The position numbers and the translations under genes were made by a program. Positions 1-48,869 of a stretch of 64,000 bases of DNA are shown here, in pieces. The stretch comes from Selaginella tamariscina (Eukaryota; Streptophyta; Lycopodiopsida; Selaginellales; Selaginellaceae). The notes beneath the pieces were generated by a model, which had not been told where the DNA came from, did no database searches, and saw only the letters and a program-made list of their open reading frames with translations. The stretch covers positions 25,105 through 89,104 of the forward strand of contig PUQB01000838.1 in the NCBI GenBank assembly GCA_003024785.1. Reading direction: 5' to 3'. The number at the start of each line of letters is the position of its first letter. Positions within the stretch are counted from its first letter, which is position 1.

Positions 1-1055
1 AGCAAATTGATAGTGTTCAGGGCACGCCAACTCTTCTATGGACATTGAGGATGTGCTAGAAAAGGGATTAATGCTTAAGATGTGCAATATTGCACAAGGA
101 GGATTCAACTTCTAGAGAATTTGGCCAGACCTAGTCAATATAGATGCTAGAGAGCAAATTAACGACAAGGCTGGGGAGCAGATCCTATATTCAACTTCCA
201 GTAGTACGTTTGAAGGAACCTCCAGCAAAGGTGAAAAGTGGAAGAAGTTTAAGACGCCATCTAATGGCAAGAAAACTATATGGGACCAGCTTAGTCAAAG
301 AACTATTGGACCACCTCCAGGAGCTGCTCTAGGTTTCGACATGTAACAAATGTAAAGAGCCCAGTCATTATGGACGTGAGTGTCCCAAGTCACACAAGGC
401 TTTAGTTAATATCATCTCAATGATACACAACCCAGATGATGGGTAACTAGACAAGATGTCATTTGGTGGACTCTACATCAAGTCAATATGTAACCTCTTT
501 GAGGCAGATTCTTTTTGATCTCCAACCATGGAGAGGCAAAGTAGTCATTAGAAACGGTGTAGAGCTAGATGTAATAGCTCAAGGTATCATAAAGATTAAG
601 CTTCCCTCCAAGTTTGGAGCAATTGTATACATATGTGAGGTCAAGCTAGTTCCTGTTTTGCTACTCAAACACTACTTATGTGGGGATCATTTGTGAGCAT
701 GGTTTTGAACTGTCATCTCTCCTTGGAGAGGTTTTTCTTGCACATCAGGTGCATGGTAAGTTGCAAATATCGTTTGAGTTGGCAACTTGTTCTGTGTGCC
801 TTGCACTATTCTAGAGAACTCCACAGGTGCAAAATCATTGGCCCCATTAATGAATAAACAACTAGTTGTAGCCATTACACCACGTCAAAGAGGGACAATT
901 GCTGATATTAACACTTGGCATCGAAGGCTAGGACATATTGATGAATAAGCCATACACAAGCTCAAGGATTAAGACATGGTGATAGGTTTGAAAATCCAAC
1001 CATCGTCTTTGAGAATTTATGAACCTTGTGTTCACGAGAAACAACATAAATGCAA
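1..1055 (+). mobile_element. Ty1/copia fossil, 5' part (gag end, protease, pre-integrase)
   Basis: This is the left part of an old Ty1/copia retrotransposon. It runs off the left edge of the window. In order it shows a gag zinc knuckle of CCHC type (near 350-390), a protease-like stretch beginning with an MVDS motif (near 463), and a GAG-pre-integrase and zinc-binding segment with WHRRLGH (near 917-940). The coding similarity stops at 1055, exactly where the inverted repeat of a large insertion starts, and resumes at 15938 on the same strand. It is clearly broken, with several disruptions, and is older than the insertion that splits it. Confidence 0.85.
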
Positions 1056-1076
1056 GTTGTAACTAAAATGGGCATG
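1056..1076 (+). repeat. Left terminal inverted repeat of the 14.9 kb element
   Basis: The repeat begins GTTGTAACTAAAATGGGCAT. Its reverse complement recurs at 15917-15937 with a single mismatch over 21 bases. It lies exactly where the copia coding similarity stops. Confidence 0.75.
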
Positions 1077-1540
1077 GCTATAGTCCCATTTCCTAATAAT
1101 TAGCAATTTTAGCTATTTAATTAGCATTTTCTAATATTAAAGGAATATTCTTTAGATATATATTTAAAAATAGAATATTCTATTTTGTATTCTACCCTTT
1201 AATAAATTATAACATTCATTGAACAAAATTAATAACATTATAAAAGTAGAAGTATTAAATTATATAATATATTGCCTAATATAACAATTAAGGAAGAGCA
1301 TAAGAGGTACATTATATAAATATTGATGTTGTTATTAAAATATTAATATTTAAATATAACATTATTAATTAAAAATTTGTAGTAGTAATAATATATATAT
1401 AAATCCTATAATAATATAGTCAATCTTCCATATCATTTTTTAAATTTATATAGTTAAGTATACAATTTGGTACTATTATTAAAGAGTTTATAATAATTAT
1501 GAATATTAAATATATGATATTTTATAATTTTGTAATTGCT
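1077..1540. other. AT-rich subterminal region, no gene seen
   Basis: This stretch is strongly AT-rich and has no supported reading frame. It carries GAATATTC palindromes near 1129 and 1168, a motif that recurs in other AT-rich parts of the element. It separates the left inverted repeat from the 3' end of the DUF7869-type gene. Confidence 0.5.
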
Positions 1541-4500
1541 TTAAGCTTCAGAAAACATACATTCCCTTGCAGTTTTGTTAATCGTGACTTTATCAACGCT
1601 TCTTGACATCCACCCATATCGAATGGATTTAACATTTATAAAACATGCTGGGTCTTTTTGATTGGGAGACCATGTTTTCTCTAGGCATCCATTATATCTT
1701 TCGCTCTCCTTCTCGTGTCGCCTTTTTTGTGGTTTGAACCATGCAACCTTAACAATACTATTTTTTGTGATTACTTCAGGTGTGTCGATAATTTGACCCA
1801 TCCAAATAGGCTGATTATATGACGCATCTGGAGTAATGAGAACCATCATTAGTTTTTGAAGATCCTGCAACAATCAAAGTATGCTTTAGGTTTTTGGTTC
1901 CTTTGTCCAACAAAGTGTGGGGTTTGCACTTCCACATCACTACTGGCTTCTATGTCGTCTATGCTCAGTGATGTCATTTCAATCTCCTCTCGCCACCTTG
2001 TTTTAGGCCAGAAAGGGTGTTGCAATTCTGTACTTGTGACAGTAGGCCCTTCCAACTCTCGAACAACAGTCTCCCAATAGTCGACCACATGCTTATATAG
2101 TTCTGAGTAACCAGTTGCCTTATCAGAATTCTTTGGCATCGATTTTTGAACCCATGCCACATATTTTTTGATGCCATCAATAATAACCTCTTGTTCCTTG
2201 AGCTGGGCACTCAATGGAATAGGGTCTGGTTGTCCTTCTGGGAGAAGTGGCTTTCCATCCTCTCCACTTTTGAAGAGCATTAAGCCCTCTTTCGGTAACC
2301 ACTCCTGCTCTGATGGCCGTAACTTGTACTGCATAATAGGTATACCATCTCGTATGGAGAAAAAGAATTGTAGCGGCACAAGGTGACCAACTAAAGAATC
2401 ACTCCCTTCTTTTATATACTCCTTGAGAAATTTTTTGAAGTCTGGCACCTCAGTCACAAGCAAAGCACAACTTTTTTTGGAGATGCAATTTTCAAAAAGA
2501 TTCATCATATGCGGTAAGGTAAGTGCACTTGTCCTTTTTGTAGAGTTGGAGACCTTGCTGAAGAACGCATCAATATCTTCATGAGTGTGACCAACCATAA
2601 GGAAACTGAGCGTGATTGTTTCAAACACACCTTTGGCAACAAGCATTGACAAGTATGCTAGCACATATCTAGAAAATAAAAGTAAGTATGAGCTTGAGAA
2701 ACCCTTAAGTAAAATGATTTACCTATTTTTGTTCTCGCCTGCACAATTATCCATCTGTAAAAGCAAATGACGAGGAAGCTTATTTGATGTTGAGGACACA
2801 TGTACACTATTTGAGCTAGATCCCTCCACTGAACCAGAACTCTCAACAGGGCCATCTGTTTTCTGTGCAGGCTGTTGACAATGCCTCTCATATTCCCAAG
2901 TAGCCTCAAGTGCAGACGTGTTCATGAGAGCATTATGTAAAGGTTGAAGGTGTTGTTTCTTCACTTTGAGATCACTGATAGGACTTGTCTGTGAGTGGGC
3001 TTCAAGGTTTCTGAAACACATGGCTAACGACCCAATAGTGAAATTGGAGTCGCTAGACCAATGTGGAAGTGAAAAGTGTCCATATGACTCACAACCGTGT
3101 CCATGTGTTAGCACACCTGTCAATGAAATCGGAAGTTTCATGACATTTCCAAGGCACTTTGGTGTTGCAAAGAGCTTTGGAATGCTGGTCTTTGAATGAT
3201 CCATCTTGTCATGGATCAAGCACAGGTACTCTGATGGGCGTGACACAGAAAGCATGCGGTGTGCATAGTACTGAGACCGGCAAGTTTGTTGTGCAATCAT
3301 GTGGGCCTCCATCTTCTTTTGAATGGTAGTGATCTCCACCAAGGTTTTTGCACAAGCCTCTGCAGCCTTCAATGATGTACAAGTGTCACACTTGGAAAAG
3401 CTAGAGTTTTGCAATCTCCACATCCTTAAAATGAGTATTCCATATGTTGTTGAAGGTACCAGTGCAGATTGCTTGGAGCCCCATCAAACTGAGGCACTTG
3501 TTCACATGTTCACACAGCTTCAATTGAGTGTAGATTGAAGGCAAAACCTTGAGATTTTCCCTGACCCCTGCATTTGTGGTTCGGCATTTGTGAGGCATCC
3601 TGTCTGCATTTGCTTCCACAAAAGCCTTGAGTATCTCTATGGCTGCCATGATGTGAGAGCGGGTTTTGACCAAGCGAGTGTTCCCATGAACTGAGGTTCG
3701 CGCTCCATCTAGCCACTCATCCCTCCGACGGTAGAACGTGGTCTTTGGGATCCCGTATATACTGTACCAAGCTTTGAAGCAGATGGCCACCTTATTAAAT
3801 ACCATGGATGTACTCTGATAACCTGTGTCCGAGGCCATTCCATCAATACACCCAGTTAGTGCAGCATATACAAACTCATGCCTTTGCTTTTGGGTGAGCA
3901 TACGAAAGACATGTCTACATTGGGTAATTTCATTCCGGTCTGCCATCTGACAACACTTCTTCTTGCAACAGTCAATCGTGGAAATGCTCGTAACACTTTC
4001 GGAAGATGTAGGATCCATCTTTACCCTCTTGCTGAAACTTGCAGGGGAAGATCTACAACCCATGAATCGCCTTTTTCTTACAATAGGACCAATGCAAGGA
4101 ACCTCTTCAAATATGAGTTGTTCTTCCGGGTTGTTATTATTGAAATCCAACCCAGAATATGTTGAACCATCTTGCCGTCTTAATTCAGATGTTCGCCACC
4201 TCACGAGGGATCCAGGATACAATGTGCCATTAGGTGAAACCTCTGTCACAACTACACCCACGAAGTCGGACCCTAGTTTCTCTTCTGACACTGCTTCCAT
4301 TGGATTTATAGCTGTGATGATGCCTCTTCCGACTTCAATCTCACGAAGAAAGAGAATCACCTCATCCATCACAGCAGGCAAGCCATCATCTGGTAAACTC
4401 GTGCTACTATTTGTTTGTGACTCTGCATATTCTGTGTCAGCCTTGACTTCATCCAAATTCCACAATACAGGAGAACCCTCCTCAAATTCCATTCCCAGAA

Positions 4501-4669
4501 CCTCAACATGCTTGTAAATGGTGTTCACCCATACGTACACACAAGATCCTTGGGCAATATTGTGACATGATGCATTATTATCTCGAACTTCCACAGTTCC
4601 AGTGCCAACTATCTCGTTGTTCCGAAGAAGACATACTTTATCTCCAGTATTAAACATATTGTCCTGCAC
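1541..4669 (-). CDS. DUF7869-type transposon protein, candidate DDE transposase
   Basis: The product is about 1,000 residues and is likely the transposase of the surrounding element. The N-terminal third (4669 to about 3950) is acidic and unrecognised. A Cys-rich patch (CCKKKCC) and an HTH-like segment follow, then the core: KCDTC, HDKMD, QMDNCAGENKN and GHTHEDID. The last two are signatures of DUF7869 proteins. The spaced acidic residues would suit an RNase H-like DDE fold, which is inference. A good GT-AG intron of about 52 bases (near 2670-2721) sits right after GENKNR. Frames change near 3405, in an A run between VEIAK and SFSKCDTC, and near 1865. Both could be small indels. The C-terminal piece (1541-1870) is SH3-like in feel but unidentified. 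The ATG at 4669 is the first in frame, and an upstream exon is possible. Confidence 0.7.
2670..2721 (-). other. Intron in the DUF7869-type gene
   Basis: On the minus strand the exon ends with the codons for GENKNR, followed by GTAAATCATT. The intron ends in a pyrimidine-rich tract and TTTTCTAG, and the next exon starts with YVLAYLSML. Joining here keeps the conserved DUF7869 core open. The intron is only about 52 bases, like others in this window. Confidence 0.7.
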
Positions 4670-4808
4670 ATAAATAATTGTATTATTTATGATATCTGTT
4701 TATGCAATATTTCTAAGAAATCTGAATTACGGTTACTTAATAATATGCATATGCAATAATACATAATTATGTTTAGAGATAATATCTCATGTTTGATTAA
4801 TACAACTG

Positions 4809-5290
4809 ATGGGCGGGATTAATCCCGCCCACGAATCCCTCCGACGAGGAACGGTCGGCGGGATTAATCCCGCCGCCGACTCAACCCCTTCGGAGAGAGT
4901 CGGCGGGATTAATCCCGCCCACAATTCTTACGACGGGGAATGGGTGGCGGGATTAAACCCGCACATAACTCTCTCCAAAACTATGATTTCAAAGAGATCT
5001 CGGGATAAATCCTGTCCCCAAATCCTTAAAACAGGGAGTGGTGGCGAGATTAATCCCGCCACCCCTTCCCTGCCTCCTAAAATGGTTGGCGGGATTAATC
5101 CCGCCGACAACTCTTTCTAATAAATTCTGGTAACTCTTCATCAGTTGAGAAGGTTATCGGCGGGATTAATCCCGCCACTCTTTTTCAGTGGCGGAGAAGC
5201 ATTGCCCGAGAGATGGTGGCGGGATTAATCCCGCCACCTCTTCGAAGAGGCGAAAAAGAAATGGCCGGATTAATCCCGCCGCCCCGGTTA
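4809..5290. repeat. Palindrome array 1 (GGCGGGATTAATCCCGCC)
   Basis: About ten perfect or near-perfect copies of the 18-bp palindrome lie at 4812, 4857, 4902, 4946, about 5000, 5042, 5088, 5159, 5217 and 5263. Most are spaced 44-46 bases apart, a few 58-71. The spacers often extend the dyad by a few bases (GTCGGC...GCCGAC, GGTGGC...GCCACC). Because many spacings are multiples of three, a frame with recurrent VGGINPA is open on the plus strand (4809-5120), and part of the minus strand is open too. I read this as a by-product of the repeat rather than a gene. Confidence 0.9.
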
Positions 5291-5829
5291 ACCTAGAATA
5301 TTAAGTTAAAAGGATATTTAAACGGGATAAATCCCTAACGGAATATATTATAATCCTAATGCATTCCTAAACCCCTAAATTGTAATTTTAAGAGAGAATG
5401 TAAGAGAGTGAATCTTTATAAGTATTTTTAAATTTGTTTATAATACTTACTTGTAAACAGCACTGAAGGCGCCGTGCTTTCCTATAAAGAATAGCACCCA
5501 ATTTAATCTCGCTCCTGAGATGATCACTATGAAGAAAAAAGAAGATCTAAAGAGTGAAAAATACAGAAATGAAGAAACCCTTGCCGGAGAAAGAACCAGA
5601 TCTGAATTTGAGTGGGAAATTAAATGCATTTTCAAATTTACATGTCAGACCGACAATACATATGTCAGAAATTCAAATTTTTTAAAAAGAACAGAAAATA
5701 AAAAAGATGAGTTGACACAAATATCCGACACTCTGACATATATACTCTCCAGTTCCAATGAGTATTTTAAAATTGCATTTAATGTTATTCAAGTGATTCA
5801 AGCTGTTTAATATTACGAAATTTTAGACT
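5291..5829. other. Spacer without a recognised gene
   Basis: This is AT-rich DNA between the first palindrome array and the 330-bp repeats. A 96-codon open frame at 5520-5810 (plus) is Lys/Glu/Asn-rich, matches nothing I recognise and has no splice or codon support. I do not call it a gene. Confidence 0.4.
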
Positions 5830-6655
5830 ATATTCTACATTCTTAGTATTCAAGTATATTTATATTATATATATATATATAAATATATACTTATACAATA
5901 AATAAATTGATATATTATTATGTATCATTTAAAATATATTCATAGTCTGTTTATTATTATTATTTTCTTAATTACTCGAGTATTTAGTTTTCATTTCCTA
6001 GTATCAATGGGATATTCTTTATTATTTTATTAATATTTGAAGAATATTCTAATATTAAACCTGATTATCATAATTAAATTAGTCTTGTTCTTAATTATTG
6101 CAGTAATTATTCTACATTTGTATATATTAATGGGATTTTCTCAATTAATTTGTTATTATTTCAAGAATATTCATGTGTTAAACCTTATTATCAATATTAA
6201 ATTAATATATATTATTAAAACTATATATGACTATATATTAGATAAAATGATGTATTATTATGTATAATTTAAAATATGTTCATAGTGTGTATATTAATAT
6301 CATTTCCTTAATTACTTGAGTAATTAATCTTCTTTATATTAATGGGATATTCTTTATTATTTTCTTATTATTCCAAGAATATTCCAATATTAAACATGAT
6401 ATATAATTAATTTAGTTAATTATTTGAGTACTTAATTTACATTTGTATATATTAATGGGATTTTCTCAATTAATTTCTTATTATTTCAAGAATATTTCAA
6501 TGTTAAACCTTTTTATCAATATTAAATTAATATATATTATTAAAACTATATATGGCTATATATTAGATAAAATCATATATTATTATGTATAATTTAAAAT
6601 ATGTTCATAGTGTGTTTATTAATATTATTTTCTTAATTATTCGATGTTTGTTTTG
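5830..6655 (+). repeat. AT-rich tandem repeat, about 325-340-bp unit, about 2.5 copies
   Basis: The segment TATTATTATGTATAATTTAA recurs at 6253 and 6578 (325 bases apart), and in diverged form at 5913 (340 bases before the first). Each copy is followed by a TTCATAGTGTGT-like stretch, a TTAATGGGATWTTCT stretch and a GAATATTC palindrome. It is non-coding and satellite-like, and lies inside the 14.9 kb element. Confidence 0.8.
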
Positions 6656-6875
6656 CACACATATATAAACACAATCATAAATTTACACACGCATTACAAG
6701 AACTTACAAAAACACATATGCACACACATGCACAACCCTAAACCAAACTGAAGAAATATGTTGCTTCTTTATTGAAAACATCATGTTCAACGCATGTATG
6801 ATATATGTACTCAATCTGTGTGTATGTAACACATTGAATTTACATGTGTAATATTTATATTAAGCTTGTTGGGAG

Positions 6876-7445
6876 CAAACCCTAAACCCTAAACCCTAAA
6901 CCCTGTGTATACATGTGTGTACAAAAATAATTTTTCAACACTCTCTCTTCACACCATGCATGATCCATCCTAAACCCTAAACCCTAAACCCTAATATGTA
7001 ACACAATGAATTTACTCATGTAATATGTATGTATGTCTGTGTGTATACACGTGTGTATGTATATATGTGTACTTTCTCTCTTCTCTCATACATACACACC
7101 ATGCATGACATGTTATATATATACTGTCTCTCTTCTCTCAAACATACACACCATGCATGATCTATAATATGTACTCGGTCTCTCTAATATTATGTACTAA
7201 TATGTATGTATGTCTGTGTGTATAATACACACCATGCATGATCCATAATATGTACTGTCTCTCTTCTCTCATATACTATGTATGTATATCTGTGTATAAT
7301 ATGTGTAAGTATATATGTGTACTAATATATGCAATGTGTACAAAAATAATTTTTCAACACTCTCTCTTCTCTCATACATACACACATACACCATGCATGA
7401 TCCATCCTAAATCCAAAACCCTAAACCCTAAACCCTAAACCCATG
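6876..7445 (+). repeat. Interstitial telomere-type repeats (CCCTAAA)n, three clusters
   Basis: Short runs of three to four plant-type CCCTAAA units occur near 6878-6903, 6970-6994 and 7410-7441. They sit within a diverged direct repeat that also carries ACAAAAATAATTTTTCAACA (about 6924 and 7339) and ACCATGCATGATCCATCC. More TTAGGG-containing sequence follows at 7645-7765. These lie inside the mobile element rather than at a chromosome end. Confidence 0.8.
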
Positions 7446-7779
7446 TAATATGTATGTATGTGTGTGTATACACTGTGTATGTATATTATGTGTGTATTAT
7501 ATGGCTGTGTATGTAGTATTGATACACATGAAACTTTAACACTCTCATGGACACACACATGTTAAATCCCTGCATGATTTATATTTTTGGGGTGTATGTG
7601 ATACACCCACGCACACGCTATAATATAATGAAAGAATATTCGTTTAGGGCGAATCTATATTTTATTCTTTTTAGGGTTTAAGTATATTCTCAGAAGGAAT
7701 ATTCTATTAGGGTTAATATATATATTTAATTCCTTTAGGGTTTAGGTATATTCTTAGGGTTTCAAGAGGCGCCTGTGAA

Positions 7780-7812
7780 ATCGGCGGCGGCGGTGTGCAC
7801 ACAGGTGAGATC

Positions 7813-7847
<35 letters not shown>

Positions 7848-8112
7848 ATATGTATAGGAGTGTGCGTATAATTTTATTTATTGATCTATCTCTCGCACAC
7901 ACACGCACACTCCTGTGTATATATATGTGTGTGTGGGTGTGTGTTTGTTTATCTGTATGATTTTATTTGTTTCGCTCACACACGCATACACACGATATAC
8001 ATATACACATATATATATATACCTATATACATATACATACATAATTATGTGTACCAGTATCTATAAATTTTTTTTATTGATCTATCTCTCCCACACACAC
8101 GCACACTGCTTT

Positions 8113-8156
<44 letters not shown>

Positions 8157-8508
8157 TAATCAATGCATATTAACAAATAGTATACAACACTAGTTTATAT
8201 ATATGCTTATATATTCATATGGGTTATATATCTATATACACACATATATATGTGTGTGTTTATCTGTATAATTTTATTTATTTATTTTTTATCTCTCGCA
8301 CACCACCACCCTGTGTATATATATGTGTGTGTGTGTGTTTTTTTATCTGTATGATTTATTTGTTTCGCTCACACACGCATACACACAATATACATATACA
8401 CATATATATATACCTATATACATATACATACATATATTATGTGTACCAGTATCTATATAATTTTTTTTATTGATCTATCTCTCCACACACACGCACACTG
8501 CTATTATA

Positions 8509-8542
<34 letters not shown>

Positions 8543-8894
8543 ATCAATGCATATTAAATAGTATACAACACTAGTTTATATATATGCTTATATATACAAC
8601 TCTCTCTCTTTCTCTATGGGTTATATATCTATATACACAATATATATTGTGTGTGTTTATCTATATAATTTTATTTATTTATTAGTTTTATCTTTCGCAC
8701 ACACACGCACACTCCTGTGTATATATATGTGTGTGTGTGTGTTGTTTATCTGTATGATTTTATTTGTTTCGCTCAACGCATACACACAATATACATATAC
8801 ACACATATATACCTATATACACACATATATTATGTGTACCAGTACTGTATAATTTTATTTATTATCTATCTCTTGCACACACAGTACACTCCTA

Positions 8895-8930
<36 letters not shown>

Positions 8931-9030
8931 TATATATTATATTATATATATATATACACACATATATATATGTGTGTGTTTTTATCATATAATTTTTATT
9001 TATTAATTTTATCTCTCGCACACACGCTAA
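7780..9030 (+). repeat. CA/TA-rich tandem repeat, about 400-bp unit, about 3 copies
   Basis: A compound unit made of (TG)n, GTTTATCTGTATGATTTTAT, TTTCGCTCACACACGCATAC, (TA)n, GTGTACCAGTATCTATA and ATCTATCTCTC recurs with starts near 7914, 8311 and 8717. The short open frames across it (recurrent Tyr/Ile/His/Thr) are products of the dinucleotide repeats and are not genes. Confidence 0.8.
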
Positions 9031-9037
9031 GCCCTCG

Positions 9038-10795
9038 AGCGGCGGGATTAATCCCGCCGCTATAGGTTTGGCCTCGGCGCGGGATTAATCCCGCTGCTAT
9101 ATGGTTGGGGCCATGGCGGCGGGATTAATCCCGCCACTGAGGCCCTTCACGCAGGCCATGGGCGGCAGGATTAATCCCGCCGCTCTAGGACAAACCGAAG
9201 AGCGGGGGATTTAATCCCGCCGCCCATGGCCTGCGTGAGGGGCCTCGGCGGCGGGATTAATTCCCGCCGCCCACCCATGCCCTGCGCGGAATGCGGCGGG
9301 ATTTATCTCGCCGCGGCAATGGCCTGTGTGAAGGCCCTAATGGGCGGGATTAATCCCAGCGGATTCCGCGCAGGGCATTTATAGGGGATGGGCGGCGGGA
9401 TTAATCCCGCTGCTTCATGAGGCTAACCGAAGAGCCTGCATAAAAGATCCTGCACGGAAGGCTAACCGAAGAGCCTGCATGACATGTCCTGTGCGTAAGG
9501 CGGCGGGATTAATCGCCGCCCAGGGAATTCACGCAGGACATGAACGGCGGGATTAATCCCGCCCCACGCTCATGCCCTTCGCGGAGGGCGGCGGGATTAA
9601 TCCCGCCGCTCAGGCACTTCCGCAGGATATAAGCGGCGGGATTAATCCCGCCCCACCCATCCTTTCAAAATGCCGCAGCAGCCAATATATATGTGTGAGC
9701 GCATGATTTACGAGAGGCGGCGGAATTAATCTCTCCGAACCTTGGCATCACCCTTCTTTTTTTCCTCCATTGGTATGTTGAATCAATCCCGACTAACTCT
9801 GTCTGAGACGGAGAAGGTTTACAAAAATCAATGGAGGGAACTGAGAAGGGTGGTGGGATTAATTTCACCATCCCTTACATGGTGGCGGGGCCCCTGAAGG
9901 GGTGTGAGAAATAAATCCCCTTTTCGGAGCCCCTGAAGGGGTGTGAGAAATAAATCCCCTTTTCGGAGCCCCTGAAGGGGTGTGAGAAATTAATCCTGCC
10001 AATTCTCTCTGAGAACGGAAAGGTGGCGTCTAGCGGGATTAATCCCGGCCTATGGCCGAAGTGAAGGGCCTGGCGGCGGGATTAATCCCGCCGCGTACGC
10101 ATGCCTGCGCGGAATCGGGGGATTTATCCCGCCGCCATTGGCCTGCCTGAAGGGCCTAGGCGGCGGGATTAATCCCGCAAGATTTCGCACAGGGCATTGC
10201 GTTCGCGGGATTAATCCCGCCGACTAAGGCCCGAGTGAAGGGCCTGGGAGGCGGATTAATCCCGCCGCGTACGCATGCCCTGCGCGGAATCGGCGGGATT
10301 TATCCCACTACCATTGGCCTGCCTGAAGTGCCTAGGCGACGGGATTAATCCCGCCCGATTCCGCGCAGGGAATTGGCGTCCGGCGGATAATCCCGCCTCA
10401 TAGGGACCAAGTGAAGGCCCTGGGCGCGGGATTAATCCCGCCGAGTCTTCAATGCCTGTTGGAGGAATGAATCCCGCCACCTTTCGCTTTTTTCTCCATT
10501 GGTGAGTCGGACCAATCCTAAATATTTCTGTCTGAGACTTAGAAGGTTTACAACATAGAATTGGGAAGGGTGGGGAAATTCATTTAACCATCCTTACATG
10601 GTGGGCGAGTTAATTCCCGCCTCCTTTCTGGAGTCACTGAAAGGGTGTGAGAAATAAATCCTGCCCATTCTCTCTGAGACCGAGAAGGTGGCAAGATTAA
10701 TTCCGCACTCCCGTTCAAGGCCTCCAGAAAGTGGCGAGATTAATCCCGCCCACTCTTTCAGGAGGCATTGAAGGGGTGGCGAGATTAATCCGCCG
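9038..10795. repeat. Palindrome array 2 (GGCGGGATTAATCCCGCC)
   Basis: About 25-30 perfect or degenerate copies of the same 18-bp palindrome lie mostly 40-50 bases apart. Clear copies are near 9041, 9117, 9391, 9546, 9591, 9636, 10075, 10162, 10251 and 10428. The spacers carry a second, longer-range dyad: CCTGCGCGGAAT in some and ATTCCGCGCAGG in others, plus GGCCTGCGTGAAGGGCCT-like stretches. GC content rises sharply against the AT-rich flanks. Short frames on either strand with recurrent AGLIPP or GGINPA are artefacts of the repeat. Confidence 0.9.
9891..10005 (+). repeat. 39-bp tandem repeat, three copies
   Basis: A unit starting CCCCTGAAGGGGTGTGAGAA begins at 9891, 9930 and 9969. The first two copies are nearly identical and the third diverges at its end. 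CCCCTGAAGGGG is itself a near-palindrome. The repeat is embedded in palindrome array 2. Confidence 0.9.
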
Positions 10796-10906
10796 CACCT
10801 TCCATGTGAATATATATGTGTATTAGTATTATAAGTTGTATATCTCATTTTATTTACTTTTTCATCTATTCATAATATTTCGAGTAAAAGCTAGGAATCT
10901 ATGTAA

Positions 10907-10991
10907 AACTGTCCAGAGCTCACATTTGTGGTGGTTCTAAACAAATGCTATCTTTCTTTTGCACTAGCACAAATGTGAGCTTCGGACAGTT
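10907..10991 (+). repeat. 85-nt perfect-arm hairpin
   Basis: The left arm AACTGTCC-AGA-GCTCACATTTGTG (10907-10930) pairs with the right arm CACAAATGTGAGC-TTC-GGACAGTT (10968-10991). That gives 21 paired positions around a short internal mismatch, closing a loop of about 37 bases. The size and shape resemble a plant microRNA precursor or a tiny inverted-repeat element. Nothing in the sequence shows that it is transcribed. It lies about 300 bases upstream of the ParB-like gene. Confidence 0.6.
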
Positions 10992-11216
10992 AATTACGTC
11001 TACTTCTCTTTGTGTATTATTTTTGTATATTCGGGTTATACAAGTGTGTGTGCGTTTTTATATGATTTGTATTATAGTGTATTATTTTGCAGAAGGACGA
11101 TTTGATCAAACAAGGAGATCGAGTCATTAGTATAGAGTCGTTGTCATTATTCTGGGTAAGAATTAAAATAAAATCTGTTATACTCGGATACTTGAACTAA
11201 TCATTTTTGTATTCAG

Positions 11217-14200
11217 ATGTGGAATTGAGGTGACATTAAAGACAAGAGCAGGAGAAGAGATGGGGCAAGGGGATTCTGGAATCAACTTGGCCATATTTTG
11301 ATAAATGGGAAGCGCATTAGAGCAACCATGGTTGCTGTAAAAATTAACCTGTCACATCTCATGACAAGCAAAATAATGGAAAGTAGATTCGCTAGTCAAG
11401 CCCGAAAGCAAGCTGCGAACCCAGATTGGACGATGCTCGACAGATATGCCTTGTTCCATCCAATGTCACGTTCTCGGATCCAGAGGTCGTCAGTTACAAC
11501 ATTAATTCGGGTGGTTTTGTCGACTTGTGGATAATGACGTTCACGTGTTCACTAATGATGTTGACCTTGGAGTTCTTCTTCAACTCAACGAAAGCCCATC
11601 TATGGAGGGGATCCATCTGGATGTCTACTTCGAAGATCTTCAGACTCATCGAGTAGGTGTATTGTCAGGAGATATTGCTTCACAATACAGAAAATCAGCA
11701 AGTGGAGCAATCTTCCCTCTTCACATTGAAGAAGAACACAGCGACATCATAAGGGAGATTGAGAGGGTGGCTCGGTCTCAGGTTCTCTACAGATCACGTT
11801 CAATTTGCTTAGGAAGCTTCGGGAGCTGGAGAGTGTGCCGAGAACACTAGAACAGCTGCAGTCGGGGATCACACATGTTGATTCGGATCGCAAAAGAAAA
11901 TCATCAATCGTTTTGTCAGCTGCACCTGTGGCATCTCATGCTGCAATAAGTCACAAGGAAATGATGTTGGATGATAAGATTTATCCTTGTAGGGTTAAAT
12001 ATTGCAGCGTCAACCCAAACTTCAATTACAGGCCACTCAACCAGGAACGTGTAGCTGAGCTCATGGAGAAGATGAAGGACGACAATTCTTATACCGTTCC
12101 ACATAATGCTGTTTTGTGTCCATACTATGAAAGAAGGAAGGGCGCTGACAAAGTCTGGATCACAACACCAGAACAACTCATGAAGATTCAGACGGAGAAT
12201 AAAAATCTATCAAGTACTACATCATTAGTGGCCAGCACACAATAACGGCAGCCCAACGACTTCTCGATGAACACAACAAAGGAACGATGGCAACAAAACT
12301 TTCCGAGCATACCCGTGAGAAGCTGACAAAAAGATCGGCGTTTTTAGCTAAGCCGAATCTCACAATCGAGCAGTACCATAAGTTATCGGCGGAATGGGAC
12401 GCTGCCGACACCAACCACTACAACAGCAAAATATGGGAGAAGTTTAAACACACGCGAGCCGTGTGGGAATCTCTTCAGCGACCACAAAGAGCTACCGCAG
12501 GGAATACACAATCTGCGGAATACCGGGTAAGCAAATTGTTTGGGCGGGATTTATCTCGCCGGTATATTAATCTGTCTTTTTCCTCAGAGAGTTGAAGAAA
12601 TTGCAGCAGTTGATTTTGCCCAGGTGGGCGGGAAGGAAACATCTTTCTGATGATGTTGATTTCTTGCCCCGAAGATAGGATCTTTGCCAAATGGTTGGGG
12701 ATTATGGAATCCTTTTCAAAAGGAACACTGAAGAAGAAGCAGACAAGTGAAGGGGAGCCCTCAGAAAAGTCTGCAAAGAAACCCAGTAAGACGCCGAAGG
12801 CTAAGTCTGTTCAATCTACAAAGGATGTAGACAACGATTTCAAGCTCACATGGTTGAAGCCTTTAAATGGAACAACGATGGAGGAGATGGAAGTCTTGGC
12901 TGATTTGGTGATCGATGGCAAACTACAAATTAATAACAGCAGCCCAACCTCTCCTTTTCATCTCAAGGCAATGGAGTTGAAGACGGTCAGGCATTTCAAG
13001 GAGTGGTTGGGAATACACTGCCACAAACTGGGTTGGACCTCGACTTCAACATATGAAGAGGTAGCAAATATTTGCATGTGACGAACGATGATATGCTTGT
13101 CGAATGGGTGAACCAATCGGAAGATCTAGGCAAGAATCTATTGCACGCCAACGCCAAAAAGGAGAACATTGGGATGACGCCTTCTCTTATGGCAGTCCTT
13201 CAGCAGCGGAGAACCGAATTGAACCTTATAAAGGAGGATGCTACGAATCACGACAAGCCCTACAGATGTTTGTTGTTAGATTCGGAGACTTTATGGGGTA
13301 ACATCACTGCTTGTAGGAAACCGTTTCAATTGTTCGTGATGGATCGGCGGGTGTCAAAAAATCTTTCGACAGATAGGGCACTAGAGGATCTGGTGGAGAA
13401 ACTTAGCCGTGCAAGCATATACATAGAAGGTATTTATTATTGAATTCATGCTTGCGCTCTTCACTGATACCTACTTTTTCAGGTATTTATTTCTTGATTC
13501 TTGCTCATGTCACCGATACTTTTGCCTTCGCCTTCGCCAAGAAGAATAGACATCGTTGGACAGGATTTTATATGAACGATGCTAATCCCAAGTGCATTGA
13601 TACGTTGTTCACTTGGTTGTTAGGAATGCGCCAAACAATTTCAAGCTTCCAAATGACTGGCCAGGCATCTGTTTGCACTCCAACGGCCCTGAACCTCCAT
13701 CCGATACACCGATAGGTATGAGTGACGTATTCGGCAATGTACGTTATCCAAACATTACAAGTCAAGCGGCACGGAGCATCGTCAACTTGATCAGGGGTCC
13801 TCACAGTGATGCGTGGGTTTTTGACTACTGCACTAGGGGGTCCGTCTTGAAGGAGTGTTACCTTCGGCATACATGTGTGTTTGCCGTTGAAGGATAAGAC
13901 CATGGTTGAGGACCTGAACAAGTGGATATAGATTTCTCAACTGAGTACCCCAACGAATCCATAAAGGCGTATTTGAGAAAGTTCCCTCCAGATAAGTGCG
14001 ATAGCTCTGAAGGTGAATCTGGTTCAATCTCGGAGTCTGAGAACGAACTTCAATCAGATATTAGACCGGAAGTTATCTCGAGGAGTACAGAACATTCGCA
14101 CACTCCAGGACCCATGGAAACATCAATAGAAGATGCAGAAGATCTTGAACCATCTCACAAGCGGCTTAGACCTTCTTCGCCTCACTCAGAAGGTAATAGC

Positions 14201-14224
14201 GAAGAAGAATTGATAATGAATTGA
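11217..14224 (+). CDS. ParB-like / amino-methyltransferase-like fusion protein, frame-broken
   Basis: The first part (11217-11850) is unrecognised. At about 11990-12290 comes a ParB-like pattern: NYRPLNQERVAELMEKM, then YYIISGQHTITAAQRL, resembling the ParB/Srx-fold 'GxxR..AA' box with GQHT in place of GEHR. The second half (12650-13920) is laid out like an N4/N6 DNA methylase. It has a strand ending in D (FQLFVMDRRV, where DPPY would sit), a helix and 'Rxlk-gg' analogue, FAFAKKNRHRWTGFYMND, then YPNITSQAARSIVNLIRG, VFDYCTRGS (compare DPFxGSG) and CVFAVEG. The acidic tail (13922-14224) has SSEGESGSISE. Introns are at 12527-12587 and about 13428-13482. Frames also change near 11530, 11800, 12202 (A run), 12640, 13075, 13615 and 13920, so this copy is decayed or carries assembly indels. 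The ParB match is fair. The methylase match is inference, and catalysis looks lost. Confidence 0.55.
12527..12587 (+). other. Intron carrying one copy of the array palindrome
   Basis: The donor GTAAGC at 12527 and the acceptor TTCCTCAG ending at 12587 bound a 61-base intron. At 12543-12560 it contains GGCGGGATTTATCTCGCC, which matches the array palindrome at 16 of 18 positions. Confidence 0.65.
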
Positions 14225-14527
14225 TAGAGTGATGAATAGTTGTAAATGAGTGTAACATAAGGCATTTTTGTATATTTCTTTTATATTTGTACAGAAAATA
14301 AATTCTCAAGGATTAATGAAGCTTTTAGTTCAAACATGGGTCACACATTAACAAGGTAAATAATATACCTTGATAATTTTAAGGTCAGCTAATTATCATT
14401 TTGCAGATGTAATGAAATAATTGAGAACATGGATTTTCAGCATTGCCATGAGGTAAGAGAGGGGTTTGGCGACAATTTCTTGTGCCACATGTCAGAATGA
14501 CAGAGTTCATGCAGGAAATGGATAATA

Positions 14528-15675
14528 ATGCAGCTCAAAACATCGTTACCATGGGGGCCACTTTCATCATCATTTTTATTGGCTTCAGTTCCGAAATCAA
14601 TTTCTTCAGCGCATGCAATATCTGAATCTTGTAAGGATGATGTACAATTAAATGATGAAGGGATAGGCAACGAAATAGTGGCAACGGATAAATGTGAAAG
14701 GGAGCAAACAAGTGATTTGCAAAGTATTCAAGAGGCAACGCTATCATGTTACTCATGGCCATATTGTGTTGTTGGATGTCAATGGTGTTCTGCTTCATCG
14801 ACAAAGGCCCGAGGATAGAAAAAAGAAATCAAACAAGGAGATTTCATTCCTTGTCATGGTAAATTTCGATATGATATTATTTTTCGTCCAGGGTTGGATC
14901 GTCTCTTTCAAAAGCTTAAGGAGATGGGTGCGCTTGTGGGGATTTGGTCATGCATGCAGATTCATAACTTAACACCGCTGTTGATTTACTTAAGAAACAT
15001 TGTAGTGTTGCAGAAGAGGTGATTCGTAAAGATTGGATTTTTGACCAGCGAATATGTTATAAACCTCTCGAATTTCACAATATAAGAAAGGAAAGCAAGC
15101 CATACTTCTTCAAGAATGAAAGAATAATTGGGACTCATGGGGAGATCAGTCGCTTAAGGATAATGAAGAATGCACATATGTTAGTAGTAGACGACTCTCC
15201 TCAGAAGGCTATGCTCAACCAAAACATTGCTTGTATTCATCCAATCACTTTCGATCCATATTCTGATACCGATATCATGGATGAGCTAGTGAACTACTTG
15301 GATACGTGCCTCAGAAAGAAGAATCTCGAAAATTTTTGTGAGCAGTATCCACCGTATCATACATTTCCTGAAGCTTTTCTTTCTCGTGATATTGAATTTT
15401 ATAAAATGAAGGATAGCAACCGGGCGCTTTATAATATTATTCTTAAGGAACGTCAGTTTTTAGATGAGCCTTTATGCAGACCTTCTCTTATCACATCTTA
15501 TGTATTAACAAGGATGGCAACTCCCAATTGCATTCGTGAGAGTGTTAAGTGGTGGCAACAACATCAAGATATTGACCAAAATGATTTGATTAATCCGGAG
15601 AGTGATGATTTAGACAAAATGAAAAGATTTCTTTGTATGATAAAAGAAAGTATTTATAAAAAATTAACATGTTGA
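14528..15675 (+). CDS. FCP1/NIF-like HAD phosphatase, plant DxNG type
   Basis: This is a haloacid dehalogenase-fold protein of the FCP1 homology (NIF) group, the family of RNA polymerase II CTD and related phosphatases. Visible motifs are VLLDVNGVLLH (motif I in the plant DVNG form, about 14765), FRPGLDRLFQKLKEMG, GIWSC (motif II Ser, about 14935), a KDWIFDQ stretch (15033), and MLVVDDSPQKAMLNQ (motif III/IV, about 15180). A C-terminal extension of about 130 residues is rich in Lys, Glu and Trp. From 15019 on the frame is clean for 218 codons. Between about 14840 and 15000 the frame shifts twice, from small indels or an unrecognised intron. The start is uncertain, and the stretch before 14700 is only weakly supported. 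It lies at the right end of the 14.9 kb element, which suggests captured host cargo. Confidence 0.7.
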
Positions 15676-15916
15676 TAAGAAAATGATTTCATTTGTAATT
15701 ATGTTTGATAGTATTTCTTCATTATTGTAAACTATTTTTAGAATAATATGAATATTCTAAGATATTTTAGGAATATTCCTTACTAAGTAAGGTTATTGAA
15801 GGATTAATTAATTAATTAATATTTAAGGCTTAATTACATATTAATTAAATGATTAATTAATAATTAAAACTTAAGTATTAATTAGTAATTTATTTTATAT
15901 TCCCATTTTCACGTAT
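15676..15916. other. AT-rich subterminal region, no gene
   Basis: AT-rich sequence with TTAATTAA runs (15803-15860) and GAATATTC palindromes at about 15748 and 15771, like those near the left end. No reading frame is supported. Confidence 0.5.
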
Positions 15917-15937
15917 CATGCCCACTTTAGTTACAAC
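15917..15937 (-). repeat. Right terminal inverted repeat of the 14.9 kb element
   Basis: The sequence ATGCCCACTTTAGTTACAAC (15918-15937) is the inverted copy of the left end at 1056-1076, with one mismatch in 21. Copia integrase coding similarity resumes at the next base. Confidence 0.75.
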
Positions 15938-18720
15938 GTGCCATATAAGCAGCCTTTCAATAATGGAGTGAGCTCTCCAGGTTCTTGTCCTCTTGAAATA
16001 ATTTACATTGATATTTGTGGACCTATGCAGGTGAACTAACCAAGTGGGAAGCGTTACTTTATTTCCTTCGTTGGATGATTATTCCCGCAGAGTGGTGGTG
16101 AAGTTCCTTGCACGCAAAGGAGAGGTGCTACAGAGTTTCCAAGCATTCCAAGCATTCCATGCAGCAACAATAGTTGAAACTAACTAGCAGTTATGTATGA
16201 TGGTGGGGGTGAATACTTGTCACGTGCTTTTGCAGATTATTACAAAGCACAAGGAATAACAAGACAAGTTTTTGTGCCTCATACTCCTGAGCACATTGCA
16301 GAGTGCATGAATAGTACTTTGGTAGAAAGTGCTCGTAGCATGTTATATGACTCAGGTTTTCCCAAGACATATTGGGCAAGGCAGTCGGTACAACAGCTTA
16401 CTTGTATAACGGAGCCCCTACTTCATCTTGCAACAAGGCAAGACACCAAAAGAGTTGTGGACAAGACGCAAGCCAAATGTGTCTAATTTAAGGATTTTTG
16501 GTTGCTTAGTGTTTGCACATGTTTATAAGGAGTTACAATAGAAGCTAGACTCTAAAACAAGGATGGCAACTCTGCTTGGATACAACGATGTATAAGCTAC
16601 TGGCCCTGGATAAACTTGGAGTTAATAATATCCCGAGATGCGTACTTACAGTAATAGGCTATTAGGGCAACATGAAAATCTCACTGTCTTAGATGTCGAA
16701 AGTGATGGCGACGAGGAGAAAGTGATACATTCTATGAATCAGGAGCAAGGAGGAGCCTTGTCTTCAAGCTCAATAGAGGCAAGGATCTAGCAAGACAACA
16801 GACGTCCTCAAATTGTTGCTCCCCTTCATCTCTCCACTGAATTCCAATTCTCACAGAGGCAGGGCAGCAATATCGTGAGGAAATAGCTCTACAAGCAACT
16901 TGTGTAGCATCTAGACAAGAGACTCGTGAGCATCTTGAGTTGAACCAAAGCCTCAACCACAACCCGAGTTGTTCTTTGCAAACAGATGCGGCATTTTGTG
17001 CAAACAGTTACCACCAAGCCATGTAGTGTGTAGATGCCGAGTACTGGAAGGAGGCAATCAACAATGAAGTTGACTCTATTGTCAAGAATCAAGTGCTAGT
17101 TCCAGTAGCACAGTTACCTCCTGGAGAAAGGTAGTGGACACAAAGTGGCTATTTAAGATCAAACTGGGCATAGATGGTCAAGAAGGCAGATTCAAGGCTC
17201 GCTTAGTAGCTCGTGGCTTCTCACAGGTGGAAGGGATTGATTTTAAAGAGACATTCTCACCAATTGTGAAACTTAACTTAGTTCATTTGTTGATGGCACT
17301 AGCAGCAGAGTTTGATTTAAAGGTGGAACATATGGATGCCATAACTTCCTTAATGGTGGAGGTTTACATGACTATGCCAGAGAGTTTTGAGTTTGAGGGG
17401 GAGAGATCGAGCAGGTTATTATCGACTCATAAATCCCTCTACGATTGAAGCAAAAGTCCACGCACATGGTACGAGATAATAGATGGATATTTTATCTCAG
17501 TTGGTTTCGATAGGAGTACAACAGATACCAATGTTTACATCAAGTTGCTGGGAGATAGGCTGATCATCGTAGATGTGTATGTTGATGACTACATTATCCT
17601 CACAAGTGTTTCAGAATTTATGATCATGATCAAGAAAGAGTTGATGGACACGTTTGATATGATTGACCTTAGTAAGATTAATATTGCCTAGGTATAAAGG
17701 TACAATGAAGCAGTGGAATGGTATGACTGTCACAGCAACGGTATGTGCATAATATCGTAAGGAGGTTTAACTCAGCTAGTAAATCCAATTGTTACTCCAA
17801 TGCAACACAACTTTACATTTGTCGAGAGAAATGAGTCCAATGACCAAACAAGAGAAGCAACAATGGCAGCAGTTCCTTATTGCCTAGTAGTAGGCAGTCT
17901 CATCTATTTTGATGGTTTGTACAAGGCCAGTTATTACTTTTGCTGTAAGACAAGTTTCTCAGTTCATAGAGAATTCTGGTTGGGAACATTAGTTATCAGT
18001 GAAACAGATCCTAAGATATCTCAAGGGATAGAGAACTTTGAGTTAGTGTATGATAGGAGTGCAGCCCTCAAATTAACTAGATACTCAAATGCAAATTTTG
18101 TAAGAGATGTTGACATGAAGAAATCCACGTCTGGTTATTGTTTCAGTCTTGGGAGTGGAGCGATATCATGGGCCAGTAAGTGCCAATAGATTAATGCACT
18201 CTTATGTACTAAGCAGAGTATATAACCATGACAACAGTTGTCAAGAAGTTGTTTAGTTGAGGGAGGACCTCTTAGGTTTAACGCTTCACCAAAAGGACCT
18301 ACTCTCCTTAAGTGTGACAATCAAACGCCATTGCCTAAAGGAACCCCGGTACCATTATAGAACGAAACAACATGTTTAGGTATGCTTCCACTGTATTCAT
18401 GAGCAAGTGAAGGATGAAGCTCTAGAGCTGCAATATGTTTCAACTGCAGAGATGGTGGCTGATATTTTCACAAAGGCTTTACCGCCGGCCATCTTTAACC
18501 AACATAGAACTTTGTTGGGAGTTTTGTTTCTTACAATGGAAGTCACATAGGTTGTGTGGACCCACAGGAAAGGCGGGGCAGAGCAATGCAAACAGACATA
18601 AGCAGAGGCCACATGGCAACATGTAAAACCAGATGTAACCATGTTCATATCAGTTTGAGGGGGAGTGTTAAAATATTTGCCTCATATGACATTAAGTGAC
18701 CGGTGGTATATATAATCAAA
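15938..18720 (+). mobile_element. Ty1/copia fossil, 3' part (integrase, RT, RNase H, LTR start)
   Basis: This is the right part of the copia element split by the 14.9 kb insertion. It shows the integrase core (IYIDICGPM near 16005, a DGGGEYLSRAF region near 16200), reverse transcriptase (MDTKWLFKIK near 17134 and FKARLVARGFSQVEG), RNase H and the ADIFTKALP end (about 18455). A polypurine tract TTTGAGGGGGAG follows at 18654-18665, and the 3' LTR starts with TGTTAAAATATTTGCC at 18666. The 3' limit of the LTR is not seen and the coordinate is approximate. It is broken in many places, probably a dozen or more, and is an old copy. Confidence 0.85.
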
Positions 18721-33274: not shown

Positions 33275-36200
33275 TCAGGCATAGCCATAGTCCTTGTAGG
33301 CAATAGAGAAAAGCAGCTTGTTTTGGAGAACTTTAAAGCTTGAGTATGTGTTGTGAATACACAGGCTCCTAGAACACGTTCGTCCAACGGGAAGGTACTC
33401 TTCGGACTTCACAATTCCAGGTTCGAACTTGATGCTTAAACTGATGTTCTTTTTGAAGTAGCTCCTATCAGTCACAAACCTGTAGAACTGCCACAACTCC
33501 TTTGGTGTCATCTTTTGAATAACAGTTTTGAACATTTCGTAAGTCATTCTTGGGAGGTTCACGTTGACACACTCACGTAGTAGTGGCTCAGCTTCAACTC
33601 CAAATGAGGCAGAGAAGGTCCGTTCAAGGAAGTCGACTCCTATGTTGTCAAGGACAAAATGAAGCTCTGCTTTCCTCGTGCTTCCAGCATTTTGTGCAAA
33701 ATTCTCAATGGTGAATCGAAAGCCATCTCGCAATGCAGTTGCAGTAACGTTACACTCCTTGAAAAGCCGATTGTATACAACTTGCCTCATGACTTTGTTC
33801 ACCTCATCCAAGAACGTCTCTCCAACCTTGATTTGCATCCACAAAAGTGTGTAAGGTTCCAAAGCTTTGACATTTGGAAGATGTTCAATTCCCGCTTGCT
33901 GAGCCTCATGAGTTGTGAAGGTTCGTAAATGGTTCAACGGATCCCACAGGTCAGGTGCAGATGCTTCAAGGTCTTGTTCAAAACGGCCCCCTGGATTGAA
34001 CCTCGGATCATTAATTGCTGGCATATTGTCCACGAGCAAATGAAAGGTAGCATAAGTACATTTCCGAGGCACACAAGCTTTTAGCCGCACAAGGTGGAAC
34101 ATAATTTGTCCCATGATCATGCACTAAAAAATAATGTAAGCTCATATATCACAGAACTCTTTTTATGTTACCTGTCGATGTGCTTCCTCTTCTAGCTCCT
34201 CATCTTCCATGACGAGAGGATGCCAAACATGCCCGTTTTTACTATGGCCAAAGTATTCTCTCAACTGGAAAATAAAAAAGTACAACTATTAGAAAAACAA
34301 AAAAAAAAAACAGCTTACATGTGACGAAGCTTGCTCCCATCCTGCCGCAAAAACACGTATACTAGGACCTCCTGTGTCAATGGTGCCATGTTCGATGATG
34401 CCTTTTCCCTTGTAACCATACTGGAATGTTGGTCTTGGAAATTGTTTAAACATGTCCGGATGAAAAGAGCTATCAAAGTAGAAGTACTCGCTATCTTCAA
34501 GTACCTAGTAAATACAATATTAGAAGAATATGAACTTGAAGAAAAAAAAAAGTACAAACCACTTGCCGAGCCACAGGAACATCCTTCCTATATAGCTGAG
34601 AGAATGTCTTCATGATAACTTCATCAAATATAAAGTCCTGCATATCCGCAAATATCTCTTCTGCAGCCTTTAGTAATTTCCAACTTGTTTCTCCATGGTT
34701 CTTTTCTTTTGCATGGGTTTCACTCTCCAACTGTAACTTCTCCTTTTCCACCTGTTTTTTGAGCTTTTGCTGAGCCTCAAGCCACCTAGACTCCATGTTG
34801 TTGTACTTCTCATGATAAGCAACAGCAAGTGTGATGTGGTTTTGTCCAGTATTACAAATGCTGCTTGAAGTTGTAGAAAAGCCCTCCACAATATCACAAA
34901 TGGAGGTGCCAAAGTTATCAAAAGGTGGAAAGAGTATCCCTGCACATTGATAGAAGTGAGGAATTGCTTGTACAAAAAAGAACATTACCTCTAGTTGCCC
35001 TCGGCACTAATTCATTAGCATGATCATGAGGTGAGACTAATTCTTCCCCAAGAGGAAATGAAGGAGTAGCCTCTTCAGGAAGTCCATGTGCAGTTGACAA
35101 ACTACATTGTGGAACTTCTGAAGATCCAAAACATGAACCTGCATGCATGCAAATAGTAAGAATAAACATATAAATAAGTGCACCTTTTGACTTGCTAAGA
35201 GGTGTTCCATTTGCCGTCGACGTCTCTAAGTTGGAGAATTCATCAATGTCTTCGTTTTCCATGTTGAAATCTTCAGTTGCATCTTCCACTAGCTCAACTT
35301 CTTCGTGGATAGTGGCTGGATCATCCTCCTCAAGTACATGCTCTTCCACAAGCTCATCGGGATCCTCATAAGTTGCATGATTCTCAACTTCTATCTCTAG
35401 CTGTTCCTTAACAATCTTTTTGGGACGAGGATGTTGAAGTCTTCTTTCCTTCTGCACAAGCTCACGCTCAGCAGTTTGAAAATAAAACTTTTGCTGCCAA
35501 GGTTGTAGGTGCTCTTCCTTCCACAATAGCACGACTGAAGGCTGTCCTTTTGTAATGTAGCCTGTTCGGTGAACTGGTGTGTCCGGACTATACACAGCAG
35601 GGAAGTAGCTTGCCTCTCCAACTGATCGTGGACGAACACTAATGCCGGCTCTCTTGACCCAATAACCTTTTGGCCTCCGCTTCTCTTGTTCATCTATCTT
35701 GAGCTTCGCAAGTAGCTGGACTGCAACAGCTTTTTGAGCTGTCCCAGGAGGGAACTCTTCAAAACACTTGTAACCATCTCCCCATTTTAAATCTGCTAGA
35801 ACATTCACCTCCACTGGCAATAACTTCTTGTGTTTAGTATAGGTACGGTTCTTGTCCACAACAACAGCACATGCCACACTCACGCTAAACCAACGAGAAA
35901 TCATCTTCAAGTTAACAGCAGCCAAGGTTGAACTGTTCAGATGTGTACGTCGTTTGCTATTGACTCTGGCAGTGTCATCCACCATTTTGGTAACCGCTTC
36001 ACTTAGCAACGTAGATGATCCATATGTATTCTACAAACACAAAATTATTGGACCATTTACATTTAAACCAAGAAAAATTACCCTTGCTGCAGTTGTCATC
36101 TCCTGCATTTGACTTGGTGAAGGTGTTGAATGCTCTAGAAGTTTCAAACCTCGTTTGACATCCTAAAAGTACATCTCAGTAATTACAAAAAAAAAAATGG

Positions 36201-48704: not shown

Positions 48705-48742
<38 letters not shown>

Positions 48743-48820
48743 GTATCTGTATCTGTATATGTGTATGTGTATGTCACCACACACCGAATTGTACATATTT
48801 GTCTCTCCTGAGCACCACGC
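47476..48820. other. Intergenic, no supported gene
   Basis: Microsatellite-rich DNA upstream of the O-methyltransferase gene. Repeated TGTACTATACATTATGTA-like stretches (48145-48245) and a (TA)n and GTAT-rich run at 48704-48760 are present. The frames here are low-complexity. Confidence 0.45.
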
Positions 48821-48825
48821 ACGCC

Positions 48826-48835
48826 TATATAAATA
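48826..48835 (+). promoter_or_regulatory. Possible TATA box of the O-methyltransferase gene
   Basis: TATATAAATA lies 35-44 bases upstream of the ATG at 48870. If used, transcription would start about ten bases before the start codon, a very short leader. The region is TA-rich, so a chance match is possible. Confidence 0.35.
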
Positions 48836-48869
48836 CATACATACACAGAGGATATATACTCCAGCGAAA

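Follow-up and report, generated by a model that had tools for sequence, protein, structure and literature searches.

Introduction

Among the DNA transposons closest to the element studied here are those of the Sola superfamily. According to a review (PMC10741241), Sola elements encode a DDD transposase, generate a 4-bp target-site duplication (TSD), carry terminal inverted repeats (TIRs) of 11-1124 bp, measure mostly 2-9 kb with some above 15 kb, and occur in Physcomitrella; the same review assigns CACTA/CACTG termini and a 3-bp TSD to CACTA, and a 7-12-bp TSD to Mutator. The Sola2-Fanzor chimeras of Dictyostelium and Polysphondylium present AT-rich 4-bp TSDs, 12-21-bp TIRs and an extra coding half (PMC3627910). 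We analysed a stretch of 64,000 nucleotides from the lycophyte Selaginella tamariscina (NCBI GenBank assembly GCA_003024785.1, contig PUQB01000838.1, positions 25,105 to 89,104 of the forward strand), hereafter the window. With a probability of roughly 80%, its positions 1050-15944 hold one member of a high-copy family of cut-and-paste DNA transposons of ~14-15 kb, in which gene A would encode the transposase, gene B an accessory protein, and arrays of palindromes would be regulatory. The element has two distinct, matching ends of ~27 bp, is flanked by a 4-bp duplication made on insertion, has empty sites, is present in many copies and shares one set of genes and arrays with those copies that were read. 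No element of this kind, whether from a lycophyte or defined by these genes, was seen in the literature searched, which does not extend to most subscription papers.

Termini, target site and empty sites

We investigated the boundaries of the element. The initial annotation, made from the sequence of the window, had proposed inverted ends of 21 bp at 1056-1076 and 15917-15937. These are identical at 20 of 21 bases, and no such pair arose in 100 shuffles of the window. The true termini lie 6 bp (ATGCAA, left) and 7 bp (GTGCCAT, right) outside them, which gives a corrected span of 1050-15944 (14.9 kb). The left, B-type TIR (1050-1076, forward strand) reads ATGCAA followed by GTTGTAACTAAAATGGGCATG and is supported by the inverted-end match and by the B-type ends found genome-wide; the right, A-type TIR (15917-15944, reverse strand) has one additional C among its outermost bases. 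An exact 4-bp duplication, ATAA, flanks the element at 1046-1049 and 15945-15948, the junctions reading ATAA/ATGCAA ... GTGCCAT/ATAA. A TSD had been reported as missing because the outermost terminal bases had been missed; it is present at the true ends.

The copia element into which the insertion took place is broken off at the left end of the insertion, where the integrase is interrupted (836-1049, forward strand, the stretch used in the empty-site search), and continues beyond the right end (15945-17445, forward strand, with an RVT_2 frame at 17074-17445). A genome search with the joined copia flanks gave 45 matches; by count of the listing, 24 span the junction, and 2 are the window's own halves. 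Four uninterrupted copia copies were aligned, and each shows a single ATAA at the insertion point, i.e. an empty site. The interruption and resumption of copia noted in the initial annotation were thereby confirmed, and the empty sites that it had proposed to look for are present in other copies of the copia element.

In the same way, the copy at G000:C2:121327-131000 is nested in another member of the family, adjoining the start of the host copy's gene A. Its empty site, seen in five aligned uninterrupted copies, reads GCAT-ATTA-TTAAG, compared with ATTA/ATGCAT... and ...GTGCAT/ATTA around the insertion, the TSD being ATTA. A first reading of the flanks, in which TGCA was taken as a palindromic 4-bp TSD, was rejected, as the empty sites assign those bases to the element.

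Copy number and target-site duplications of the family

The assembly to which the window belongs (300.7 Mb, 1391 contigs) was searched for further ends. The 21-bp pattern, with at most 2 mismatches, occurs 2383 + 2291 times, and the reversed-pattern control 0 times. The two end types diverge further inward and are found near one to one (about 1450-1560 of each), with 747 + 704 B-type (left) and 784 + 777 A-type (right) ends. The listed exact A-type ends number 100 and stop at contig C192; pairing was determined between these and the 80 of 100 listed exact B-type ends that lie no further than that contig. In this sample, 39 of the 80 B ends have an inverted A end 8-20 kb inward, against controls of 2 for a like-oriented A end and 3 for an outward one, and 33 of the 39 distances are 13.6-15.4 kb; the co-occurring inverted ends that the initial annotation had proposed to look for are thus found elsewhere. 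If most of the ~1500 end pairs are full-length, the end counts suggest that the family would make up ~20 Mb, ~7% of the assembly.

Ten pairs were fetched whole and, together with the window copy, measure 13.8-14.9 kb; one of them includes 2500 N. The mean identity of the matching stretches is 90.8-97.7% pairwise and 92.4-95.6% against the window. The ten copies align with the window element along its whole length; in four of the comparisons, examined in detail, the matches span the first to the last base, the intergenic middle being fragmented by repeats. The genes described below (DUF7869 gene A, orphan gene B and phosphatase-like gene C) are each at least 95% covered in all 11 copies, which also all have both palindrome arrays; genes and arrays thus occur as one unit, as the initial annotation had supposed.

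The TSDs were surveyed in 23 flank pairs with a single end rule, set after some flanks had been seen. An exact 4-bp TSD is present in 13 of them, compared with a mean of 0.92 and a maximum of 5 in 2000 shuffled pairings, and these 13 TSDs contain 17% G+C. A TSD of 5 to 9 bp is found in 0 of the 23 pairs.

CACTA (En/Spm) and Mutator are also plant elements with TIRs, and CACTA can likewise exceed 10 kb, whereas the present element has ATGCA termini and a 4-bp TSD. CACTA was ruled out, as neither CACTA/CACTG termini nor a 3-bp TSD is present; Mutator was set aside given the length of its TSD (7-12 bp), the survey at 5 to 9 bp and the 4 bp of the empty sites. Ginger was rejected as well, since its 5'-TG...CA-3' termini differ from the ATGCA assigned by the empty sites, and the Gypsy-type integrase has no match in the frames scanned.

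A chance inverted repeat was rejected on the basis of the window shuffles, the genome-wide end counts and the pairing of the ends. Two further readings would suit the size of the element and its number of genes, namely a segmental duplication whose inverted ends arose by chance, and the integration of a virus or polinton-like element. We give them almost no credence: no capsid or polymerase family was found in the frames scanned, the viral contigs searched for gene A relatives yielded 38 pattern matches of which none is a relative, and the duplication is refuted by the TSDs and the empty sites.

As a separate observation, two A-type ends lie 235 bp apart at G000:C1:2394700-2395200 and point away from each other; two elements therefore seem to have inserted there almost side by side.

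Gene A encodes a DUF7869 protein, likely the transposase

Gene A (1544-4657, reverse strand) is predicted to comprise two exons separated by a 54-bp GT...AG intron (2669-2722, reverse strand) that is common to all 11 copies; its frames are broken in the window copy. Two open reading frames of the window match DUF7869 (PF25273; E 5.9e-27 and 2.5e-13), in agreement with the initial annotation of a putative DUF7869 transposase gene. A composite gene A query retrieved 53 protein relatives, the closest at 49% identity, including proteins from Ceratodon, Physcomitrium, Riccia, Mytilus, Exaiptasia and Holothuria. DUF7869 proteins are thus present in a mussel, a sea anemone and a sea cucumber, and the family is therefore broader than plants.

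An alignment of 42 of the 53 relatives (11 were left out) shows no substitution at D192, H389, H391, D393 or D395, and near-invariance (>=90%) at D353 and E392. The conserved acidic residues are compatible with a DDD transposase, although they fall short of proof. The genome contains at least 300 DUF7869 matches, and the four that were compared by eye with the list of ends are located ~1.3-1.6 kb inside a B end. The gene A product is, on these sequence grounds, likely the transposase. The profile scans against named transposase families gave weak matches only, e.g. Transposase_23 at E 0.19.

Judged by described features, the element operates in the manner of a Sola transposon. The two have in common the 4-bp TSD (here in 13 of 23 pairs and at the empty sites), the TIRs and a size within the described range (~27 bp and 14.9 kb) and, possibly, a DDD-type transposase, for which the candidate residues in the alignment are the invariant D192, D393 and D395 together with the nearly invariant D353; Sola is also known from a moss (PMC10741241, PMC9033089). 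They differ in that the window element has a constrained orphan gene, a phosphatase-like gene, arrays of 18-bp palindromes and ~1500 ends of each type.

That the element is simply a Sola transposon with two captured genes, DUF7869 then being a Sola-type transposase under another name, is in our view as likely as not. The AT-rich 4-bp TSDs, the fit with the described Sola features (DDD, 4-bp TSD, TIR and size ranges, Physcomitrella; PMC10741241) and the DUF7869 relatives in mosses and animals argue for it, as do the Sola2 elements with differing extra halves and AT-rich 4-bp TSDs (PMC3627910); the likeness is one of description. The Sola2-Fanzor chimeras resemble the window element in their AT-rich 4-bp TSDs, their short TIRs and the additional coding sequence of one half, but their extra halves vary by family and carry Fanzor, whereas genes B and C are present here in 11 of 11 copies. 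Alternatively, and more tentatively, DUF7869, the 4-bp TSDs and the ATGCA termini may define a cut-and-paste superfamily of its own. In the literature searched, with the limit of coverage given above, DUF7869 is not mentioned, and the weak matches to named transposase families point the same way, but the measured features equally fit Sola.

Genes B and C

Gene B (11230-14221, forward strand) is a multi-exon orphan of ~960 codons whose frames are broken in the window copy. Reading of the frames indicates at least 2 introns, one of them a predicted GT...AG intron at 12527-12587 (forward strand). The initial annotation had named this gene ParB/methyltransferase-like, and stretches such as ISGQHTITAAQRLL and DYCTRGS...FAVEKD may be reminiscent of ParB and methyltransferase motifs. 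The label found no support: no ParB or methyltransferase family was found in Pfam, PHROGs and NCBIfam at a maximum E of 10, where the HMMER filters may hide weak matches, and the profile scans gave weak unrelated matches only, at E 0.027 and above. Searches for protein homologs with the whole gene (E 0.001) and with the ParB-like exon (E 10) returned no relative. Against the PDB, one piece of gene B had no match, and two pieces matched designed repeat proteins through summed repeats, with no single significant stretch.

Gene C (14615-15645, forward strand) encodes a NIF/FCP1-like phosphatase and its frame is broken in the window copy. The protein read from the fetched copies matches PF03031 (E 1.3e-12, 48.2 bits against a curated cut-off of 21.8), and the FCP1-like identification made in the initial annotation stands on this protein; the window's own gene C frames have no PF03031 match. 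By eye, 20 of the listed genome matches were counted that combine an open 340-aa frame with a near-equal score; other NIF genes of the genome score far higher. The usual motif of NIF/FCP1 phosphatases has two catalytic aspartates, DxD. In 4 of 23 copies, those read at the motif, the sequence is LLDVNGVLL, with an asparagine replacing the second aspartate. The phosphatase activity of gene C is therefore uncertain.

A parallel with giant transposons whose complement of host genes changes was not borne out; the copies read whole have one gene set. Starships are also large and carry extra genes, but the window element has TIRs, a 4-bp TSD and a gene set that is constant in the copies read. A tyrosine recombinase, a Starship trait, has no match in the element frames scanned.

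Selection on the genes

Selection was assessed by comparing the variants shared by at least 2 of the 11 copies, which mostly predate the last insertions, with singletons; the test is not tree-based. It excludes gaps, stretches of low identity, residues close to the end of a hit, and codons represented in fewer than 8 of the 11 copies, and retains 988 of 1021 codons in gene A, 781 of 964 in gene B and 307 of 349 in gene C. The shared variants concentrate at third positions (p 0.0021 for gene A, p 2e-5 for gene B), with a nonsynonymous/synonymous ratio of 0.21 in gene A and 0.20 in gene B. The singletons show ratios of 0.81 and 0.79, respectively, and no codon periodicity. The difference between shared and singleton variants has p=0.0011 for gene A and p=1.2e-5 for gene B. 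In the moving lineages, the function of gene B seems to have been preserved as strictly as that of gene A. As purifying selection on the shared variants is equally strong in the two genes, gene B is probably a working part of the element and not inert cargo. The initial annotation of a large cargo transposon is thus retained for a large transposon with extra genes, but the word cargo is doubtful for gene B. Part of the broken frames may be assembly errors.

Gene C presents 7 shared variants among the 11 copies. The test was repeated with 12 more copies (23 in total), a looser identity filter and codons with at least 14 of the 23 copies (337 codons), which gave ratios of 0.41 and 0.63 for shared and single variants (p=0.56) and a third-position excess with p=0.032.

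Palindromes and repeats

Two arrays of an 18-bp palindrome are present in the window, array 1 with 11 sites of the GGCGGGATTAATCCCGCC type directly upstream of gene A (4812-5335) and array 2 with 27 sites upstream of gene B (9041-10793). Both are at the same places in 11 of 11 copies, and a further site lies within the gene B region in 10 of 11, in the window in the predicted intron at 12527-12587. There are 39 sites in the window and 16-45 per copy, the 16 being in the copy with N. The window sites carry high information over positions 1 to 9, counted from their centre, and at most 0.6 bit from 10 outward. The arms show no covariation beyond chance except in single columns, at distances 17 (13/2000 shuffles) and 24 (40/2000); a hairpin function was rejected, the arms lacking consistent covariation. 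Because the central information is high and the arm covariation inconsistent, the pattern is, in sequence terms, that of the site of a dimeric protein and not of a hairpin.

These sites might bind a host E2F-type factor that would couple expression to S phase, a proposal that we consider doubtful. The half site GGCGGGA resembles an E2F core, and the arrays stand upstream of both genes A and B; the number of sites, however, seems above the need of a promoter.

As the initial annotation had also noted, telomere repeats accompany the palindrome arrays in the window: three short telomere-like AAACCCT runs lie at 6877-7442. Such runs are variable and present in 8 of 11 copies, and are therefore a minor feature. 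They are of the plant type and, with the copia RVT_2 frame and the O-methyltransferase frames given below, indicate a land plant as host. A 325-bp unit is repeated in tandem 2.3 times at 5883-6644, between genes.

Proposed mechanism

In the transposon that we propose, the gene A product would bind the ATGCA... ends, cut using its conserved acidic residues and join the ends to a staggered, AT-rich target site of 4 bp. Active elements would need the gene B product as an accessory protein, since gene B is under equally strict conservation. A dimeric protein, encoded by the element or by the host, would bind the 18-bp palindromes and control genes A and B. Gene C, phosphatase-like, would be a captured gene whose use is unproven.

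Several results weigh against this interpretation. Ten of the 23 flank pairs have no 4-bp duplication, and some of these may be altered ends or ends of different copies. The DUF7869 profile has no reliable match among solved structures, the best being a chain length determinant protein at E 0.032. The selection signal of gene C is weak (ratio of 0.41 for shared and 0.63 for single variants, p=0.56, 23 copies). Finally, the raw pairwise pN/pS of the three genes is 0.35, 0.32 and 0.53, while the non-coding ends read as codons give 0.49, 0.38, 1.20 and 0.89; raw pN/pS was set aside as evidence of selection in favour of the comparison of shared and singleton variants.

Gene capture by plant transposons is common, and genes B and C could be mere passengers, the constraint on gene B being unrelated to transposition. 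The weak selection signal of gene C and the far higher-scoring NIF genes elsewhere in the genome favour this view, which we nevertheless hold to be unlikely, as the shared variants within the family show constraint on gene B and the search for gene B relatives found none. A separate giant eukaryotic transposon superfamily that would need, for transposition or maintenance, both a DUF7869 recombinase and the gene B protein, the latter binding the palindrome arrays somewhat as ParB binds its centromere-like parS sites, is quite improbable.

For DUF7869, a domain of unknown function that occurs in mosses, a liverwort and animals, the element supplies a defined setting: it belongs to a large family, its ends are clean, and both a TSD and empty sites are known for it. 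A transposase role of the domain is thereby directly testable. The element also offers an orphan gene that is seemingly preserved in moving lineages.

Neighbouring genes

Elsewhere in the window, a HECT ubiquitin-ligase frame at 33278-34123 (reverse strand; PF00632, E 1.3e-9) is probably a host gene or a fragment of one. Roc-COR GTPase frames lie at 58714-60127 (reverse strand; PF08477, E 1.7e-9, with COR-A below the cut-off). Additionally, an O-methyltransferase gene extends over two frames at 48633-49672 (forward strand), which match PF08100 and PF00891.

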